From Janthinobacterium sp. Marseille (lineage in GTDB: Bacteria > Pseudomonadota > Gammaproteobacteria > Burkholderiales > Burkholderiaceae_D), in NCBI RefSeq assembly GCF_000013625.1, contig NC_009659.1, positions 1,736,001 to 1,800,000 of the forward strand: a stretch of DNA of 64,000 nt, read 5' to 3'. The position numbers and the translations under genes are program-made. This document shows positions 34,835-64,000 of this stretch, in pieces. The stretch's first letter is position 1. Each line of letters opens with the position of its first letter. The notes under the pieces are model-generated. The model made no database searches. It was not told the origin of the DNA and saw nothing but the letters and a program-made list of their open reading frames with translations.

Positions 34835-35092
34835 TTATTTCGCTTCAAGCAAATCCTTCAAGCGAGAATTCTCCAGAGCAAGTTCTGCGACGATTTGTTT
34901 AAGCTTGCTGTTCTCTTCCTGCAGGCATTTCAAGTCTTGCGGGAAGCCAGGCAAGGCACTGTAGCGTTTCTTCCAGTCAAGAAATGTTTGCTCGCTTACC
35001 CCTGCATAACGCAATACATCTTCCAGGGGAATACCGAGTTCTTCCTGCTTCAGGGCGGCTGCGATCTGTTCGCTTGTTATCGTTCGCTTCAT
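34835..35092 (-). CDS. Orphan IS3-type OrfA-like HTH protein
   Basis: An 85-residue protein, MKRTITSEQIAAALKQEELG and so on, with a Tn3/IS3 OrfA-type helix-turn-helix (ITSEQIAAALKQEELGIPLEDVLRYAGVSEQTFLDWKKRY). A C-terminal leucine-zipper-like coiled coil follows (EENSKLKQIVAELALENSRLKDLLEAK). This is the complete OrfA layout, but there is no OrfB integrase gene and no terminal inverted repeat in the 189 bp downstream. GAGGA precedes this ATG by about seven bases; a start 13 codons upstream at 35131 is also possible. It may be an insertion-sequence relic or a domesticated DNA-binding protein. It is co-directional with the exported proteins upstream of it. Confidence 0.75.
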   Translation of the reverse strand: MKRTITSEQIAAALKQEELGIPLEDVLRYAGVSEQTFLDWKKRYSALPGFPQDLKCLQEENSKLKQIVAELALENSRLKDLLEAK

Positions 35093-35147
35093 CGCAGGGT
35101 CCTCGCTTGGTTCAATAAAAAATTTCCTCATGGAAATTCACCCTTGT

Positions 35148-35891
35148 TCAAGGCAATGGTTCAAGCCCCATACGTTTGCGCACAACAGGATCGGTATATT
35201 GTTCGGCCGAACCTTGCATGCTGACTGAATAGGTTTGTACCGGGCTTGCTGCTTCCGCTTTGGGTGCACTTGGACACGAACGACCGGTCGCTTCGATTGC
35301 CTTGCGATTCGCATCGCTTTGGCACAGCAGGGCGAGCGCGACATCGTTCATACCCATGGCGCGGAATTCACGCGAATCGAGACGGCGTACGCAAGCTTCA
35401 TCAACCATCGTCATACCGCCGGTCACACCGAAACCGACTGCGGATAAACCGATAGAGGCGGAGCCCATGCAGGTGTCGGATAGCGTGGTGGTTAATGATG
35501 GTGCCAACACGCCAGGTACATTCTTGACGGTGTAGCTACCGCCATAGTCAACGGTTGCCTTGGTATTGTTGGCGCTGCTGCCGGGAGCACCGACATCACC
35601 GAGAGGAGCAGCAAGCGCAGATACACCACCTGAACCTGTACCCGCATTGACCGAGACATTCACATTCGATGCGCCACCACTGGCCGAACCACCGGTTGCA
35701 CTGCCACCGGTAGCGCTGCCGCCGGTCGCCGATCCACCCGCACCGCCGGCGCCGCCGGTTGCAGATGAACTTGAAGTTGGTATTGCAGTCCCGCCTGATC
35801 CGGAGCCTGACCCATGTCCGTGCGGGCTTCCTGCCCATGCTGGCAAGGCAAACATCGAGGCTACCAGCACGCCTATAAGATTGCTTTTCAT
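35148..35891 (-). CDS. Exported Gly/Ser-repeat protein with four-cysteine DTCMGSAS domain
   Basis: A 247-residue protein. A signal peptide covers about 1-20 (ending LPAWA). Residues 21-80 are low-complexity Gly/Ser/Ala with tandem GGSAT repeats. A folded-looking domain at about 110-205 contains YGGSYTVKNVP, LSDTCMGSAS, FGVTGG, VDEACVRR, MGMNDVALALLC and NRKAIEATGRSCP, with four cysteines. The same domain, with the same cysteines in the same order, occurs in the exported protein at 60764-61354, so these are paralogues. I do not recognise the family. GGAG precedes the ATG. It is followed by the OrfA-like gene and preceded by another Gly-rich exported gene on the same strand. Confidence 0.75.
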   Translation of the reverse strand: MKSNLIGVLVASMFALPAWAGSPHGHGSGSGSGGTAIPTSSSSATGGAGGAGGSATGGSATGGSATGGSASGGASNVNVSVNAGTGSGGVSALAAPLGDVGAPGSSANNTKATVDYGGSYTVKNVPGVLAPSLTTTLSDTCMGSASIGLSAVGFGVTGGMTMVDEACVRRLDSREFRAMGMNDVALALLCQSDANRKAIEATGRSCPSAPKAEAASPVQTYSVSMQGSAEQYTDPVVRKRMGLEPLP

Positions 35892-35982
35892 GGCTGCTCC
35901 ATCACAATGATGTTTCTTTTAATTAAGGAAGAGAGTTGCCTCTCTTCCTGTTAGCTACCTTATCGATAGCCGGTGTGCAGAC

Positions 35983-36663
35983 TTAGTGAGCAATTGCGGT
36001 CGAACCACCACCATTGCCGCCATTGCCGCCAAACGCTGCGCCGCTCTTCGTCGAGCCGCCGATGGTTACCGACTTGCCATTACCTGCGTAGTTGCCGTTG
36101 TTGCTGCCGGCCGACGCGCCACCGGTGAAGGACTTGGTTTCTCCGCCGACTGCAACGGAATTACCGTTGAGTTTTTGCGCTGCTGAAGCGTTGCCAGCCT
36201 CTGCGCTGCCACCACCGCTAGGACCGCCGTTGCCATTGCCGTTCCCGTGGTTGCCGTTGCCATTCCCGTGGCCTTGGCCGCGGTTCCCGTTGCCATTCCC
36301 GTTGTTGCTGGGTGGAGCGCCGGCACCGACCCGGGCCGTACTGGCAACATTTGCAGTGGTGTCGCCACCGAAGGATTTGACGTTGCCGCCACCAGTCCAG
36401 TTACCGCCGGTATTGGCAGTGGCACCGGAATTGTTTTGATATGCATTCCCGCCGCTTGCGTTGCCGCCTGTAGTTGAGCCGCCGGTCACATTTCCCGATG
36501 TTGCGTTACCACCGGAGCCACCTGCGCCGCCAACTGATACTGCGGACACTGCGCCGCTGGCTGCTGGTGGTGGGTTGCCGCCACCAGGACCGCCATGGCC
36601 GCCGGCAAAAGCCGCTACAGCGAACAGTGAAGTGATGGCTGCTGCAATGATGTGCTGTTTCAT
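35983..36663 (-). CDS. Exported Gly/Asn-rich low-complexity protein
   Basis: A 226-residue protein with a signal peptide (about 1-20, ending AVAAFA) and an almost wholly low-complexity mature part. It contains GGNATSGNVTGGSTTGGNASGG, an NGNGNxGxG tract at about 125-148 and repeated K-S-F/V-G-G motifs. There are no cysteines in the mature part. Composition suggests a secreted, extended or amyloid-prone surface protein; this is inference. It shares the NASAAQ motif with the exported protein at 59495-60238. AGGAG lies eight bases before the ATG. It is 91 bp upstream of the DTCMGSAS protein and probably co-transcribed with it. Confidence 0.7.
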   Translation of the reverse strand: MKQHIIAAAITSLFAVAAFAGGHGGPGGGNPPPAASGAVSAVSVGGAGGSGGNATSGNVTGGSTTGGNASGGNAYQNNSGATANTGGNWTGGGNVKSFGGDTTANVASTARVGAGAPPSNNGNGNGNRGQGHGNGNGNHGNGNGNGGPSGGGSAEAGNASAAQKLNGNSVAVGGETKSFTGGASAGSNNGNYAGNGKSVTIGGSTKSGAAFGGNGGNGGGSTAIAH

Positions 36664-56951: not shown

Positions 56952-57659
56952 TCAACCTACATTGAGCTGGTAGCCGAACGAATGGATGCTGATTAAACGT
57001 ACCTGATTCTCGGAATTGAGTCGTAACTTGCTCCTGAGTTGGGATGCGTGAGTGTCAAGACTTCGTGAATAGATATCCGTTTTACGTCCCCATATCTCGG
57101 CCATTATCTGCTCGCGAGAAATTTGCATGCCAATGTTTTTAAAGAAGAGCACGGCCATGTCGAATTCTTTTGGCTTCAAATCGATTTGCTCCCCTCGTAC
57201 CGAGACAGTTCTTCGCAATAGATCAAAATAATAAACACCTACTTCGATTTTGCTCACTTTCTGCGCAGTTGAAGGAACTTCAATAGTAAGGGGGCGGCGT
57301 CCTCGTTTGGTAAGCGCATGGATGCGTGCCGCCAGTTCGGCGTCCCGGAATGGCTTTCTAATGCAATCATCTGCACCGGCCATTAAGATCTCGACGATCT
57401 CATCTTCCCGCGCGCAGTCGGCAAGTACAATCACGGAAATGTCGTTGCCGGCACTTTCTTTTACCCATCGAATGACCTCCATGCCTGATATGTCTTGAAG
57501 ATTCCAATTGAGGATAAGCAAGTCGTACATATCGTTGGCAAGTGCAGAGATCATTGCTTTGCCAGTCATAAACGTGGTGCATTCATGTCCTGCATCTGTT
57601 ACGACTTTATGAATTGCGCGTGATTCAAGTGGATTATCTTCTAACGTTACTATTCTCAT
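56952..57659 (-). CDS. OmpR-like response regulator with degenerate (pseudo) receiver
   Basis: A 235-residue protein with a receiver domain (about 1-118) and an OmpR/PhoB winged helix (about 135-235: RGEQIDLKPKEFDMAVLFFKNIGMQISREQIMAEIWGRKTDIYSRSLDTHASQLRSKL). The phosphoacceptor Asp is replaced by Asn51 (LLILNWNL). The switch Thr is Ala80 and the switch Tyr is Cys99. Only Glu7/Asp8 and Lys102 remain. It therefore cannot be phosphorylated in the normal way. No histidine kinase gene is near. I start at the ATG at 57659; the frame has 13 further codons upstream. It lies upstream of the exported-protein cluster. Confidence 0.9.
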   Translation of the reverse strand: MRIVTLEDNPLESRAIHKVVTDAGHECTTFMTGKAMISALANDMYDLLILNWNLQDISGMEVIRWVKESAGNDISVIVLADCAREDEIVEILMAGADDCIRKPFRDAELAARIHALTKRGRRPLTIEVPSTAQKVSKIEVGVYYFDLLRRTVSVRGEQIDLKPKEFDMAVLFFKNIGMQISREQIMAEIWGRKTDIYSRSLDTHASQLRSKLRLNSENQVRLISIHSFGYQLNVG

Positions 57660-57838
57660 TTTTATTGAGCTTATGCGCTTTGTTACCTTAAACAGCAAGG
57701 GACTATTATCTGGTCGCCATCTCGGCCGATGGACGGCGGATAGCCATCCGACGAGGGGTGACTGTGAAGGAAACCGGGAACTCGAAGGGGCGTTACGATG
57801 GCAAGAATCAGATCAAATAAATTCGCAAGGATTTCTTG

Positions 57839-58195
57839 TTAAGGATGATTTTTCATATGCTGACTTGAGCTCCTGAACACCTCAAAACAAAATTCCTCCA
57901 CTACATTTCGGAACTTGGCTATCTGCAGTGTTTCAGGCCGAATTTTCTTTTTCCTTTGCCACTTCTGAACAGTCATATGCGCTTTATCGAAATTGGAAAC
58001 AAGGCCAGGCTCTTCATAAACGAGAAATGCAGCCAGCTCTTCAGGACGCATGTCCAGTGTCTGCCTTAGTTCCTGTATTGATTTATGCAAGGCCTTGTCT
58101 AACGCTGGCGGGGTGATCCCTACCTGCCTCAACGCCCGAAGAGTCATTATTACGAAATATATATTCTTCATGCCCGGTAGGATGTTCAGGTACAT
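57839..58195 (-). CDS. Small HTH-like protein
   Basis: A 118-residue protein of no family that I recognise. Residues 45-100 look like an XRE helix-turn-helix (SIQELRQTLDMRPEELAAFL, then HMTVQKWQRKKKIRPETLQIAKF) with a 14-residue insertion between the two helices. It is likely DNA-binding. The first ATG at 58195 lacks a clear ribosome binding site; ATGs eight and 16 codons later are alternatives. It is co-directional with the exported cluster and the response regulator. A copy of the 107-bp repeat lies upstream of it. Confidence 0.55.
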   Translation of the reverse strand: MYLNILPGMKNIYFVIMTLRALRQVGITPPALDKALHKSIQELRQTLDMRPEELAAFLVYEEPGLVSNFDKAHMTVQKWQRKKKIRPETLQIAKFRNVVEEFCFEVFRSSSQHMKNHP

Positions 58196-58676: not shown

Positions 58677-59429
58677 TTAAGGAAGGCTCTTCAGATGATC
58701 TGTGGCGCCAGGGCTACCTTCATACTGCGCGTTGTAATAAGACTGCACATCCACTGTTGAATATGATCCATCCACGCTGCCATTGCCGGTTACCGCAACA
58801 TTAGTAATATCAGAACCGTAATTAATATAAGCTTCGCCATTCACGTAAGGTTCGGGCGACCCATAGGTGTAAGTGTAGGAATAGCCGTCACCAAAGGCAC
58901 TGCCTTGTACGCCGGCACTGCCATTGCCAACTACAGTAGCAGCGCTTTCACCATCTACACGTACGCTGACGATAGCAGTAGACTCACCCACAATTCGTTC
59001 CTGGCTGATAGGGTTGCCGGCACTATCATAGAACACGCCCAACGGTTGGATGGCACCTCCCACTACACTACCGGATTGCATGCTGTGCGCTACCGCTCCA
59101 CCGGTACCGGCACCAGTGACTACCCCTGATACATTGGACGCAGTCGCTCCGGAAATTCCCCCTACATACACGCTGACACCGGCTTGCTGGTATTGATATC
59201 CCGGAACCGTGTAATTCGATTGCAGGAATGGACCACCGGACTGGTAAGACGAGGCGCTCGCATAATGGGTGCTGGAACCATTCGCACCGGTGGAACTTGA
59301 GGTCGTGTTTATACCGCCAGATACGCTGACTTGAGGAAGCTGTGACGGAGCAGGCAATCCAGCCGGTAAGCTTTGAGCCAGGCTCACCGTCGTTACCAAG
59401 CCCATATACATTACAAATAAATTTTTCAT
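58677..59429 (-). CDS. Exported Ser/Gly/Tyr-rich low-complexity protein
   Basis: A 250-residue protein with a signal peptide (about 1-18, ending VSLAQS) and a mature part rich in Ser, Gly, Thr, Ala and Tyr with no cysteine. It has SPEPYVNGEAYINYGSDITNVAVTGNG near the end; PEPYV also occurs in the neighbour at 59495-60238. Composition suggests an extracellular fibre or matrix protein, which is inference. No known domain is seen. It is the last gene of a four-gene run of exported proteins. Confidence 0.7.
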   Translation of the reverse strand: MKNLFVMYMGLVTTVSLAQSLPAGLPAPSQLPQVSVSGGINTTSSSTGANGSSTHYASASSYQSGGPFLQSNYTVPGYQYQQAGVSVYVGGISGATASNVSGVVTGAGTGGAVAHSMQSGSVVGGAIQPLGVFYDSAGNPISQERIVGESTAIVSVRVDGESAATVVGNGSAGVQGSAFGDGYSYTYTYGSPEPYVNGEAYINYGSDITNVAVTGNGSVDGSYSTVDVQSYYNAQYEGSPGATDHLKSLP

Positions 59430-59494
59430 TTAGTAAAAGAGTGTTGGATCATATTGCTTGAATGGCACTGGTTGGATGGAAGGAATAACACTAA

Positions 59495-60238
59495 TCAGTT
59501 GTTCCCGCCGCCACCGCCGCCTGAAAATACACCTGTGGCGCTAGCGTTGTAATTACCGTTTTGAGTAGCATCCGCATTCACGGTAAAGCTTGCATTTCCA
59601 TACATCGCCACTGCGTTGGTGTTTGCATTACTGCTGCCGTCGGTCGAGCCCTCGGCTCTGGCTTGGTTGCCGTACCAGGCATTTGCAGGAATGGCCGTAG
59701 CTTCTGCATTATTACGAGCGTTTCCATCCGAATACACCTGTACAGAACCGTCGTTTGTGACAGTGGTCGAACCGCTGGAATAAATACTGACGTTTGACTG
59801 GACATCAGCATGGCCATGCGTCTCGGGAGCCACATAAGGTTCAGGCCAGACGGGGCTAACAGAAACTGCCTGGGCTGCGGATGCATTTCCAAGTTGTGAG
59901 GCTGCAGCGTTAGCACTGCCGACACCAGCACCATATGAGCTCATTGATGAACTGCCATTCGACTGGAGTCCTACGATTACCTGACCCATGCTTTGGTCAG
60001 GTGCGATGTATTGGCTACCTAGCGCGCTGGTATTGTTTGCAGACGAGGCATACGCGTTGTGACTGGAGTAACTACCCGGGACACTGGCGGTAGACACACT
60101 GCGTGCTGACGTGCTCGATACTGATGAAGTGGTAAAGGAATTTGTTGGAAGTACTGTAGTTTGTGCTTGTACGGCATTGCAATATGCCAGCACGCCACAG
60201 CACAGGCTAGCGGTAAGCAGGAACGTTTTATTTTTCAT
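59495..60238 (-). CDS. Exported Ser/Asn/Ala-rich low-complexity protein
   Basis: A 247-residue protein with a signal peptide (about 1-25, ending NAVQAQ) and a mature region dominated by Ser, Asn, Ala, Thr and Gly, ending in GGGGGGNN. It shares PEPYV with the neighbour at 58677 and NASAAQ with the protein at 35983. Alternating patterns such as NASFTVNADATQNGNYNASATG are compatible with beta-strand stacking. Its ATG lies seven bases after the stop of the previous gene, so they are probably translated from one mRNA. Confidence 0.7.
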   Translation of the reverse strand: MKNKTFLLTASLCCGVLAYCNAVQAQTTVLPTNSFTTSSVSSTSARSVSTASVPGSYSSHNAYASSANNTSALGSQYIAPDQSMGQVIVGLQSNGSSSMSSYGAGVGSANAAASQLGNASAAQAVSVSPVWPEPYVAPETHGHADVQSNVSIYSSGSTTVTNDGSVQVYSDGNARNNAEATAIPANAWYGNQARAEGSTDGSSNANTNAVAMYGNASFTVNADATQNGNYNASATGVFSGGGGGGNN

Positions 60239-60245
60239 AAGTACA

Positions 60246-60725
60246 TCACTTATCGCCCGGCAAACAGGCCGCCTGTTTAGGCTTTACCACTGTGCGAGTT
60301 TTCTTCTTGAGCACAGGGGCACTGTAGTTTTGCATCGGTGCTGATTTGGGAATGGGCACTGGCAGGAGTGGGGCGGTGACTTGTGTCGGCGGCTCTTTAA
60401 GCAAAGGTCGGAAATAGAGATATTCCGCGCGCCCAAGTTTAGGTTGCCATTCATAACCCTGGCATTGCAAGCCTTTTATAGTCTTTACACAAGGTACATC
60501 CACCACACGTGGCCATATGGTGGCTGCGGTCGGATGGCCAGGCAGGTATTGCGGTGCATGGTACAGGTCGTTACCCATAGAGCTAGCGTTTTCCATACCC
60601 TGGACTCCAGGTGTGCCAGAGCCATATTCGTTGCGCAGGATATCTGCATCCAGCGCAAAAGCGTGCGTGCAAGCAGTCACAGCAACTACTGACGTGGCGA
60701 CGCCCAGGACAATCTTGTTCCACAT
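60246..60725 (-). CDS. Exported hypothetical protein
   Basis: A 159-residue protein with a signal peptide (about 1-24, ending THAFA). The mature part is not low-complexity: QYLPGHPTAATIWPRVVDVPCVKTIKGLQCQGYEW, then AEYLYFRPLLKEPP and a proline-rich, strongly basic end (KKKTRTVVKPKQ). Two cysteines near the middle could form a disulfide, with one more near the end. It could be an assembly or anchoring factor for its low-complexity neighbours; this is only inference. AGGAG precedes the ATG. Confidence 0.65.
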   Translation of the reverse strand: MWNKIVLGVATSVVAVTACTHAFALDADILRNEYGSGTPGVQGMENASSMGNDLYHAPQYLPGHPTAATIWPRVVDVPCVKTIKGLQCQGYEWQPKLGRAEYLYFRPLLKEPPTQVTAPLLPVPIPKSAPMQNYSAPVLKKKTRTVVKPKQAACLPGDK

Positions 60726-60763
60726 TGCTTCTTCTCCTAAGGAGGGGTTGGATTGTTCCGGAC

Positions 60764-61354
60764 TTAGTTCATTGCTTGTTCAAGCGAACGATGACTTGTA
60801 TCAGCCGCCGTCGCTTTCCTGGCCTCTTCGTCGCGCTTCGTTTGCGGACAAACGAAACCAGTCAACTCGAGTGCTTCGCGATTGTCCTTGTCCATGCACA
60901 TACGCGCCATAGCAGCACCTTTCATGCCCATGTTCCAAAGTTCACGTGCATTCTTGATCATGACGCAGTTGTCATCGACGTAGGTTTTACCCAGGGAGAT
61001 ACCCAGGCCGGGAGCCGCGACGGCTCCCGAAGCCGAGCCCATGCAAGTATCGTTCGAGCTGGTGAGCGGTGCGGAATTCATCGAAGGAACATTGCGTATG
61101 GTTTGTGTTCCGCCGTAATAAACATTTTGGGTACCCACTTGTTCGCCACTACCGGAAGTTGCAGCACCGGCAGCGCCCGACGGCGTTTGTACCGATAGAT
61201 TGATCGTCTGGTTGTTACCGGCATTCGAAGCTTCCGATTGGGTCTGCGAGGTGGAAGTGGATTGCGAGCCGCTAGTCGGTATTGTTTGTGCGAAGACACA
61301 GAGCGAAGTGGTGGTGGTCAGCAGGGCAAGCACCAGGGATTTAACTTTAGACAT
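60764..61354 (-). CDS. Exported protein with four-cysteine DTCMGSAS domain
   Basis: A 196-residue protein with a signal peptide (about 1-22, ending CVFAQ), a Ser/Thr/Gln/Asn-rich segment (23-75) and a domain at about 80-175. The domain has YYGGTQTIRNVP, SNDTCMGSAS, LGISLGKTYVDDNCV, MGMKGAAMARMC and NREALELTGFVCP. Its four cysteines and flanking motifs match the protein at 35148-35891. It is the first gene of the four-gene run and follows a 565-bp control region with the second copy of the 107-bp repeat. The family is unknown to me. Confidence 0.75.
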   Translation of the reverse strand: MSKVKSLVLALLTTTTSLCVFAQTIPTSGSQSTSTSQTQSEASNAGNNQTINLSVQTPSGAAGAATSGSGEQVGTQNVYYGGTQTIRNVPSMNSAPLTSSNDTCMGSASGAVAAPGLGISLGKTYVDDNCVMIKNARELWNMGMKGAAMARMCMDKDNREALELTGFVCPQTKRDEEARKATAADTSHRSLEQAMN

Positions 61355-61919: not shown

Positions 61920-64000
61920 TTACCATTTGATGCGCATGCCTATCGTTCCGCCGTATCCATGCGAATCGGCACTGGCCAGGCTGGCGTTGTAGCTGGCTTC
62001 TCCGTAGATAGAGTACTTGTCATTATTCCAGTTGTACGAACCGCCGAAACCAATTCCCGCCCACAACCGGTCGTTGCTATTGGCGAAAGTCTGACCGCCG
62101 ACTGTGACTGACGTGCCATCAAAGAATTCGTTATATAAACTGGCGATGCCATAAAGGCGAGTTCTGTTTTCCTGATATTCAAGGCTCATGCCCAGGCGAC
62201 CTTGCAAGCTATCATCACGCCCATGCCTGACTGACGCACCAAAGACGTCGTTGAAGTCCTTGAAGCTTGCTTTTGAATAGCTCAGTTGGACTTGCGGTGT
62301 CACAGACCAATTGCTATTCATCTTGACGCGCTTGCCGCTCTCGACCGACCAGGCCTGGCCGAAGGCATTGTTGTCGCTTTTAAGGCTATGCACCGAATTG
62401 GCAGACAGGTTGCTGCTGTACCAGGTCAGCTGCGCTGCGCCATCTACATAAAAACCGTTTTCACCATACCAGGTCAGCGTGCCGCCAATGCCGTAGCCGT
62501 CGGTGGAAATGTTGCCGGAGCCATAGTTGCCGACACCATAACGCCAGGATGTTTTGGCGCTGCCATGCACATAGTGCAGGAGGGCGCTGCCGACGAGTTT
62601 GCCCTTGTTGTTTTCCGTGAGCAGGGCATCGATGCCACCCTGCATTTTGTATGTGTCGTACTGATAGTCACTGCCGGAAGTGGAATCTTTCGGTGTCATC
62701 CGGTTATGTCCGCCTTCTACCCGTACCCACATACCATTCGTTTCGGTAAACGTCCCCGTTACGCCGCGCCCATTGTCTTTGGCAGACGAACTGCTGCCAT
62801 CATTCCAGAAACGATTGCCGACCCTTTGCTGTAGTGTCGGCAAACCATTCAGTCCCAACAGGATTTGCGGATAGGCTTCGTAGCTGGGTACACCGGGTTG
62901 GTATAGTGGCGTGCCAGGTGCGTTTAGCAAAGCGGAGCGCAGGTACCAATTGCCATCTGCAGGCGTGGATGCACCTCCCGCATAGAGACGGTATGCGTAT
63001 GCGCCCGCCACGACAGCTTGCTGACCCTCGAAGGTGGTAGTGCCTACCAGTGAAAAGGTGCCGTTGGAGGCACCCTGTACTTCAATAATTCTGATGCCTT
63101 CTGTTGTTTGCGCCCCAGCTCCGCCGAAGTTCGTTACCGTGACCGGCGTGGCACCCGAGGTGCTGCCCGTGATGACCAGACGATCAGTGGCGGAGCTGTC
63201 GTCTCCCAGTTGCGTCCTGATTTCGATACTGCCGCCCGCGGGTGTGTAATTGCCGGCGATGGTGAGTGTACCGAGGCTGCCGCTGTGACCAGGAGCGATA
63301 ACACCACTATTGGTGGTAACACCGACTTGGCCGATACCGGTCAGGCGTCCGCCGGACTGTACGTCGATAGTGCCGCCGAGGATGCCGTCCATTTGCAGCG
63401 TACCTGCACTGACTGCGGCGTTGCCGATAAAGGTAGAACTATCGCCTGTGAGTATCAGCGTGCCGGCACCCAGTTTATTAAAGGTGGAGGTGCCGGTAAA
63501 AGCGGTACTGATAGCGATGGTGTACGTGTTGCTATCGAACCATGCGCCTTCGCTTCCGACAGTCAATCCCGTGAAACCATTCAGGAAATTGGCTTCATCA
63601 CGGTTAGCGCGCAGTATGCCGCCATTGAGGTCGAGGTTGACGGTGCCGACTCCGGAAACGACGGATCCGGTTTCGACTATGCCGCGTCCGGTGGCATCAC
63701 CGTTGATGTGCAGGGTGCCGCTACTGGTAGCAGTATTGGCGATATGAACATTATCACCAACTTTTACCAGGCCGCCTTTTTCGACGGTCACCGTGCCGGA
63801 ACCATCAACGCCGACGATCAGATCATCGCTTACGCTTAATGTAGAGGCATTGCCGGTGCTGCTTGATACGGTAACCGTACCTTGCGCGCCGGCGAAGTAG
63901 CCAAGATAGATCGTTGCAGCCGAAGCCGGGCCGCTGAATCCAACGGTGCTTACCGAGGCGCCTTCCAGGACTTCCAGTTCACCGGTTCCAATGTAACCCA
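61920..64000 (-). CDS. Autotransporter with C-terminal beta-barrel, 5' part missing
   Basis: The gene is open to the right edge; about 693 codons are visible. The passenger part shows beta-helix repeats such as GAGTLILTGDSSTFIGNAAVSAGTLQMDGILGG and GRLTGIGQVGVTTNSGVIAPGHSGSLGTLTIAGNYTPAGG, the passenger-associated repeats of type V secretion. The last 300 or so codons form the outer-membrane barrel (GVTGTFTETNGMWVRVEGGHNRM to GGTIGMRIKW), ending in an aromatic residue as barrels do. The protein would be displayed or released at the cell surface. The end of the gene is 565 bp upstream of the exported-protein operon on the same strand. Confidence 0.92.
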   Translation of the reverse strand, partial: GYIGTGELEVLEGASVSTVGFSGPASAATIYLGYFAGAQGTVTVSSSTGNASTLSVSDDLIVGVDGSGTVTVEKGGLVKVGDNVHIANTATSSGTLHINGDATGRGIVETGSVVSGVGTVNLDLNGGILRANRDEANFLNGFTGLTVGSEGAWFDSNTYTIAISTAFTGTSTFNKLGAGTLILTGDSSTFIGNAAVSAGTLQMDGILGGTIDVQSGGRLTGIGQVGVTTNSGVIAPGHSGSLGTLTIAGNYTPAGGSIEIRTQLGDDSSATDRLVITGSTSGATPVTVTNFGGAGAQTTEGIRIIEVQGASNGTFSLVGTTTFEGQQAVVAGAYAYRLYAGGASTPADGNWYLRSALLNAPGTPLYQPGVPSYEAYPQILLGLNGLPTLQQRVGNRFWNDGSSSSAKDNGRGVTGTFTETNGMWVRVEGGHNRMTPKDSTSGSDYQYDTYKMQGGIDALLTENNKGKLVGSALLHYVHGSAKTSWRYGVGNYGSGNISTDGYGIGGTLTWYGENGFYVDGAAQLTWYSSNLSANSVHSLKSDNNAFGQAWSVESGKRVKMNSNWSVTPQVQLSYSKASFKDFNDVFGASVRHGRDDSLQGRLGMSLEYQENRTRLYGIASLYNEFFDGTSVTVGGQTFANSNDRLWAGIGFGGSYNWNNDKYSIYGEASYNASLASADSHGYGGTIGMRIKW

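Follow-up and report, generated by a model that had tools for sequence, protein, structure and literature searches.

The curli operon with its regulator CsgD is a natural system to compare with the gene set described here, a cassette of exported proteins at positions 58677-61354 (minus strand) of a 64,000-nucleotide stretch of the Janthinobacterium sp. Marseille genome (NC_009659.1, 1,736,001 to 1,800,000; this whole stretch is called the window below, and the genome is a single contig of 4.11 Mb). This cassette, locus A, reads in gene order 4C (a four-cysteine protein), HAPQY, LC1 and LC2 (low-complexity proteins, LC), with gaps of 38, 7 and 65 nucleotides; a second one on the same strand, locus B (35148-36663), consists of an LC gene followed by a 4C gene. 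The likeness to curli and CsgD lies in comamonad-type relatives of these loci, where a LuxR-type regulator gene is divergent from the gene of an exported and, by prediction, beta-rich subunit. The difference is that the curlin repeat PF07012 has no match in this whole genome at E≤0.1 (an E. coli control was matched) and that no protein of the locus matches a CsgG-type pore. Curli were rejected on these two grounds; the genome does have two CsgG-domain genes, but away from the locus, and the one with the stronger match is surrounded by small lipoprotein-like genes. No Fap protein turned up in general Pfam and NCBIfam scans of the locus proteins, the genome not having been searched with Fap models, and none of nine proteins matched a PADLOC defence model at E≤0.01.

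Phages also carry curli. Phage-encoded curli (type VIII secretion) have been published for pelagiphages (PMC9599517; PMC7029224), and the methylophage Melnitz has a curli set that lacks the fibre genes, the authors stating in their passage on this set that they saw no clumping (PMC9004378). Sibling capture and defence against superinfection are among the roles suggested where these papers discuss such modules (PMC9599517; PMC7029224; PMC9004378). Compared with phage curli as these passages present them, our cassette is likewise an exported gene set found as an auxiliary cluster in aquatic phages, but it has no recognised curli component and no family in common with them. A 4C gene is also present in HTVC023P and Mosig, two phages of Pelagibacter. 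A further system to consider is Braun's lipoprotein, which, according to the section of PMC8263019 that concerns it, is joined to peptidoglycan via its C-terminal lysine by L,D-transpeptidases. Here too a candidate L,D-transpeptidase (LDT) is paired with a partner, HAPQY, that has lysines near its C-terminus; however, HAPQY has no evident lipobox, two to four residues follow its lysines, and no signal peptide is evident in the LDT-like protein.

A recurrent pairing of four-cysteine and low-complexity genes

The original prediction, made from the letters of the window, described these genes as encoding exported low-complexity proteins with a shared four-cysteine partner. The six open reading frames were all found at the coordinates of Table 1, on the minus strand, and all six products begin with a signal-peptide-like N-terminus, as judged by a hydropathy and AxA heuristic rather than by SignalP. 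None of them has a Pfam match above the cut-off or an NCBIfam match. Both 4C proteins match PHROG 20531, which is catalogued without a function (E 9.4e-13 for locus A and 1.7e-23 for locus B), and the mature protein has four cysteines (C104, C130, C153 and C169) that are invariant across 90 aligned sequences; an AlphaFold2 model predicts a small helical domain, for which there was no PDB match.

The locus-A 4C has 531 relatives, and a profile search gave 542 for HAPQY. Where at least 1.2 kb was available upstream of 4C, an exported Gly/Ala/Ser/Thr-rich LC gene stood directly upstream of it in 27/30 IMG/VR loci, 36/38 database genome contigs and 32/32 family/order loci, a description that fitted 10/641 of the other open reading frames of at least 120 amino acids within the same loci, taken as a control. 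The proposed check of whether the four-cysteine family adjoins low-complexity exported genes thus came out as a widespread pairing. Three viral loci are misses: in L021 and L024 a separate LC gene is lacking and 4C itself starts with a long extension of Gly-rich or collagen-like character, and L035 has one rich in Ser, Gly and Gln. Locus A of the window is an exception too, having no LC gene upstream of 4C and two downstream. No homology of LC1 or LC2 to the widespread LC families could be detected: against two LC profiles, 10 and 46 of 500 shuffles scored as high for LC1, and 26 and 25 of 500 for LC2; the locus-B LC scores 120.9 bits against the type-B LC profile, a value that none of 500 shuffles reached.

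What had been called a basic hypothetical protein is indeed exported, but it was overlooked as a partner of 4C: it belongs to a two-cysteine family, HAPQY, which follows 4C in 32/32 IMG/VR loci and 34/37 genome-contig loci with room for it, and in locus A. A viral scan anchored on HAPQY gave 32 loci, each on a contig of its own, and every one of these contigs (compared by eye) was among the 4C contigs; in the genomes of the order Burkholderiales HAPQY was found in 3/399, adjoining 4C in all three. HAPQY has no PDB relative by sequence, and the scanned HAPQY and LC proteins have no PHROG match at E≤0.01 (best for the window HAPQY, 0.14).

The LC genes look real rather than like stray frames. 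LC1 has relatives of 247 amino acids at 80% identity and of 200 at 71%, on contigs whose sizes (1,048,422 and 6,288) match those of two 4C relatives, P0003 and P0002, and pN/pS among the locus-B LC genes, i.e. that of the window and six relatives, is 0.26-0.52 (0.28-0.45 for the window gene against the six). The module is real and widespread, and we found no published description of it. In sum, the original prediction held for the repeated pairing of 4C with low-complexity exported genes; the shared motifs it named carry little weight, and a recent duplication of the loci is not supported, points to which we return below.

The transpeptidase-like gene and the HAPQY tail

In 30 loci an LDT gene lies within 4 kb downstream. 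Its product belongs to PHROG 38499, likewise catalogued without a function (E 2e-44 to 4e-40 for the four scanned), and H66, G94, C95 and N97 are invariant in 10/10 members, a histidine plus Gly-Cys-x-Asn pattern that may correspond to the YkuD catalytic motif.

Presence of this gene goes together with the end of HAPQY. We compared 69 distinct HAPQY proteins whose loci extend for 1.3 kb or more downstream, reading the ends strictly and by eye. In all 30 that are accompanied by an LDT gene, Lys-Lys is followed by two to four further residues, with Glu, Gly or Gln in the final position, and none of the 39 others has this ending (3/39 on a loose reading, with Lys-Lys near the end). Proteins without the gene either have almost no tail, which is the case for most of those from Comamonadaceae, or finish differently, several of them with a cysteine and a final lysine; the window HAPQY, ending in AACLPGDK, is of this type, and no LDT of this family was found in locus A or elsewhere in the window. 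Among the matches listed, 97/120 HAPQY relatives have the Lys-Lys ending. On the 4C tree, read by eye and with several of the forks weak, LDT presence changes at separate places: L020 vs L027; L017 vs L021, L024, L025 and L033; L012 and locus A of the window vs L014, L030 and relatives; L062 inside Comamonas; and L044 and L046 vs L042 and L043. By analogy with Braun's lipoprotein, we infer that HAPQY may be an LDT substrate. The viral contig L043 (4617-5345 and 7923-8441) carries two 4C genes and two LDT-like genes.

A proposed surface polymer and its alternatives

The cassette, present in many freshwater phages and some bacteria, probably has a coating or anchoring role at the cell surface. 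Our preferred reading, to which we would give a probability of about 40%, is that of an envelope module, spread by phages, which displays a polymer rich in beta structure that is sometimes tethered to peptidoglycan; the linkage is what we observe, and the polymer, its tether and its benefit are what we infer from it. In this mobile module, spread between phages and Burkholderiales, LC would be the bulk subunit, its long beta strands arranged in an open-edged sheet that may stack into a polymer on the cell surface. 4C would join this material via its own low-complexity N-terminus, its disulphide-stabilised domain starting or ending the polymer, and HAPQY would be the anchor on the envelope side; where LDT is present, the Lys-rich tail of HAPQY might be linked to peptidoglycan in the manner of Braun's lipoprotein. 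In phages the product may alter the surface of the infected cell, either shutting out rivals or making hosts clump. The cassette of Comamonadaceae would be a set of resident genes next to a LuxR-type response regulator encoded divergently, and in the Janthinobacterium genome locus A retains 4C and HAPQY, with two unrelated LC genes downstream. It seems unlikely that the fully specified version holds in every part, i.e. a phage-borne, peptidoglycan-tethered polymer of LC subunits with a disulphide-capped 4C, a HAPQY anchor and a dedicated transpeptidase acting on the Lys-Lys tail, with which phages re-coat infected cells and which Burkholderiales took over under LuxR-type control.

Several points weigh against a tethered polymer. 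The type-B lineage lacks HAPQY, which is why this gene is present in only 2/33 family/order rows, and the named phages have no HAPQY (0/9) and mostly no LC (1/8 with room). No outer-membrane exporter was recognised in the cassette. As for the enzyme, its match to YkuD (PF03734) is weak (8/10 aligned LDT at E≤0.1; best 6.2e-4, with 20.8 bits vs a Pfam cut-off of 23.4), its His-Cys spacing is longer than is usual in the YkuD family, the lack of an evident signal peptide counts here as well, and the association between LDT and the tail is partly that of one clade, the tail-less Comamonadaceae. The LC proteins have no curli- or Fap-like repeat regularity, an absence of motifs that the original prediction had also remarked on. 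Finally, the modelled LC is that of Comamonas (L061), to which homology of LC1 and LC2 is not detectable by profile, and AlphaFold2 is described, where PMC11795689 deals with artificial perfect repeats, as yielding confident but unrealistic beta folds for them.

It is also conceivable, though somewhat doubtful, that the products modify the envelope or exclude superinfecting phages without any polymer. LC would then be a flexible, mostly unstructured spacer or mask, 4C and HAPQY periplasmic or outer-membrane partners, and the LDT-like protein a remodeller of peptidoglycan. Carriage by phages near auxiliary genes, the LDT-like neighbour in 22/35 viral rows and the low-complexity character of LC and of the 4C N-terminus would all suit this idea; nevertheless, the L061 model predicts an all-beta LC with confidence (mean pLDDT 83.1, most strands about 25 residues long), and LC is kept with 4C in 32/32 type-B loci although nearly all of these are without HAPQY and LDT. 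That the LC chains instead form the wall of a large beta-barrel pore or secretion channel, with 4C and HAPQY as its periplasmic base, we consider very improbable. Rather improbable, too, is a passenger island whose genes are neighbours through shared mobility and whose products do not act together. Phage carriage, the mobile-looking surroundings in Comamonas and the variation of LC genes by lineage, with LC1 and LC2 replacing the usual LC in locus A, are in keeping with such an island, but linkage in a fixed order is retained across phages and several bacterial genera in spite of large divergence, the HAPQY tail and LDT change together, and fusion-like forms of 4C exist.

The loci of the window and their relatives

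The two loci had been linked by their four-cysteine proteins and by short recurring words. The 4C proteins are homologues, with a local score of 250 that 0/300 shuffles attained, but a recent duplication is not supported because the loci fall in different clades. In the 4C tree (94 columns, 100 distinct rows; built on a short alignment, with a bootstrap that had not settled and many open forks) the locus-A 4C groups, at a support of 100/93, with nine viral contigs and a single small contig that was assigned to Methylococcaceae by binning, and the locus-B 4C is among 21 type-B rows that form a separate set (100/99), an Oxalobacteraceae clade. The word PEPYV is shared no more than by chance, as 85/300 shuffles share a word of at least five letters; GNASAAQ is rarer (1/300), yet P0249, a relative of LC1, reads GNAYAAQ at that site, and the shared words therefore carry little weight.

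Neither LC1 nor a match to the 118-amino-acid protein downstream of locus A turned up in the 12 other genomes of the genus; their 4C matches are far weaker than the genome's own locus-A copy, and their best matches to the nearby regulator are 55% identical. Taken with the phage grouping of its 4C, this makes it likely, although not proven, that locus A was acquired from the phage pool.

Table 1. Features of loci A and B and of their surroundings (window coordinates)
Feature	Coordinates	Strand	Basis
4C type A, exported four-Cys protein, 196 aa; low-complexity N-terminal part and C-terminal four-Cys domain	60764..61354	-	Open reading frame, PHROG 20531, tree, model
HAPQY, exported, 159 aa	60246..60725	-	Profile match E 2.7e-48 in own genome
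LC1, exported low-complexity protein, 247 aa	59495..60238	-	Open reading frame; relatives at 80% and 71% identity
LC2, exported low-complexity protein, 250 aa	58677..59429	-	Open reading frame
Locus-B LC, exported Gly/Asn-rich protein, 226 aa	35983..36663	-	Type-B LC profile, 120.9 bits; pN/pS vs relatives
4C type B, exported four-Cys protein, 247 aa	35148..35891	-	PHROG 20531; type-B clade
Transposase-OrfA-like protein, 98 aa; membership uncertain	34835..35131	-	Relatives downstream of 4C in 28 type-B loci
OmpR-type response regulator downstream of locus A; membership uncertain	56952..57698	-	Pfam Response_reg and Trans_reg_C
118-aa protein between locus A and regulator; membership uncertain	57839..58195	-	No Pfam match; 1/13 genus genomes

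Upstream of the locus-A 4C, at a distance of 565 nucleotides, lies 61920-63791, the C-terminal part of a 1001-amino-acid autotransporter. Relatives of the OrfA-like gene next to locus B lie immediately downstream of type-B 4C, on the same strand, in 28 other loci (L133-L168), which makes it a constant neighbour; with no obvious OrfB in the window, it is possibly a domesticated regulator.

On phage contigs the module lies near genes for ClpX-like and ClpS-like proteins and tRNA nucleotidyltransferase, and no tail or capsid gene was recognised near it among ten scanned phage-contig proteins, six of which had no match. In seven viral contigs (L029, 1656-2627, and relatives) the cassette is followed by a protein of about 323 amino acids that by eye is caspase-like. 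In place of HAPQY, the Pelagibacter phages (L003-L011) mostly have, directly after 4C, a protein of 432-611 amino acids, mostly with a signal-peptide-like start, which contains acidic and Pro-rich stretches and has weak carbohydrate-binding matches.

A divergent LuxR-type response regulator gene lies about 2 kb upstream of 4C, and therefore beside LC, in 31 rows, all comamonad-type; after removal of one duplicate genome this makes 30 of the 37 comamonad-type loci (counted by hand), the domain call being based on two scanned examples. Comamonas testosteroni ATCC 11996 has three 4C loci, and six similar loci in IMG/VR are Comamonas-like by sequence. In nine Comamonas-type loci (L036-L041, L059, L060 and L066) a DNA-binding gene that by eye is AlpA-like lies about 3 kb upstream, which perhaps marks a mobile island.

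The loci of the window thus belong to a recurrent, uncharacterised module common to freshwater phages and to bacteria of soil and water, comprising three protein families without a curated domain, and the pairing of a transpeptidase-like enzyme with its partner's tail is open to direct test. If surface material is indeed built, the module would give phages a second way, besides phage curli, to remake the surface of their host, and would be a case of phage genes turned into resident surface genes of bacteria.
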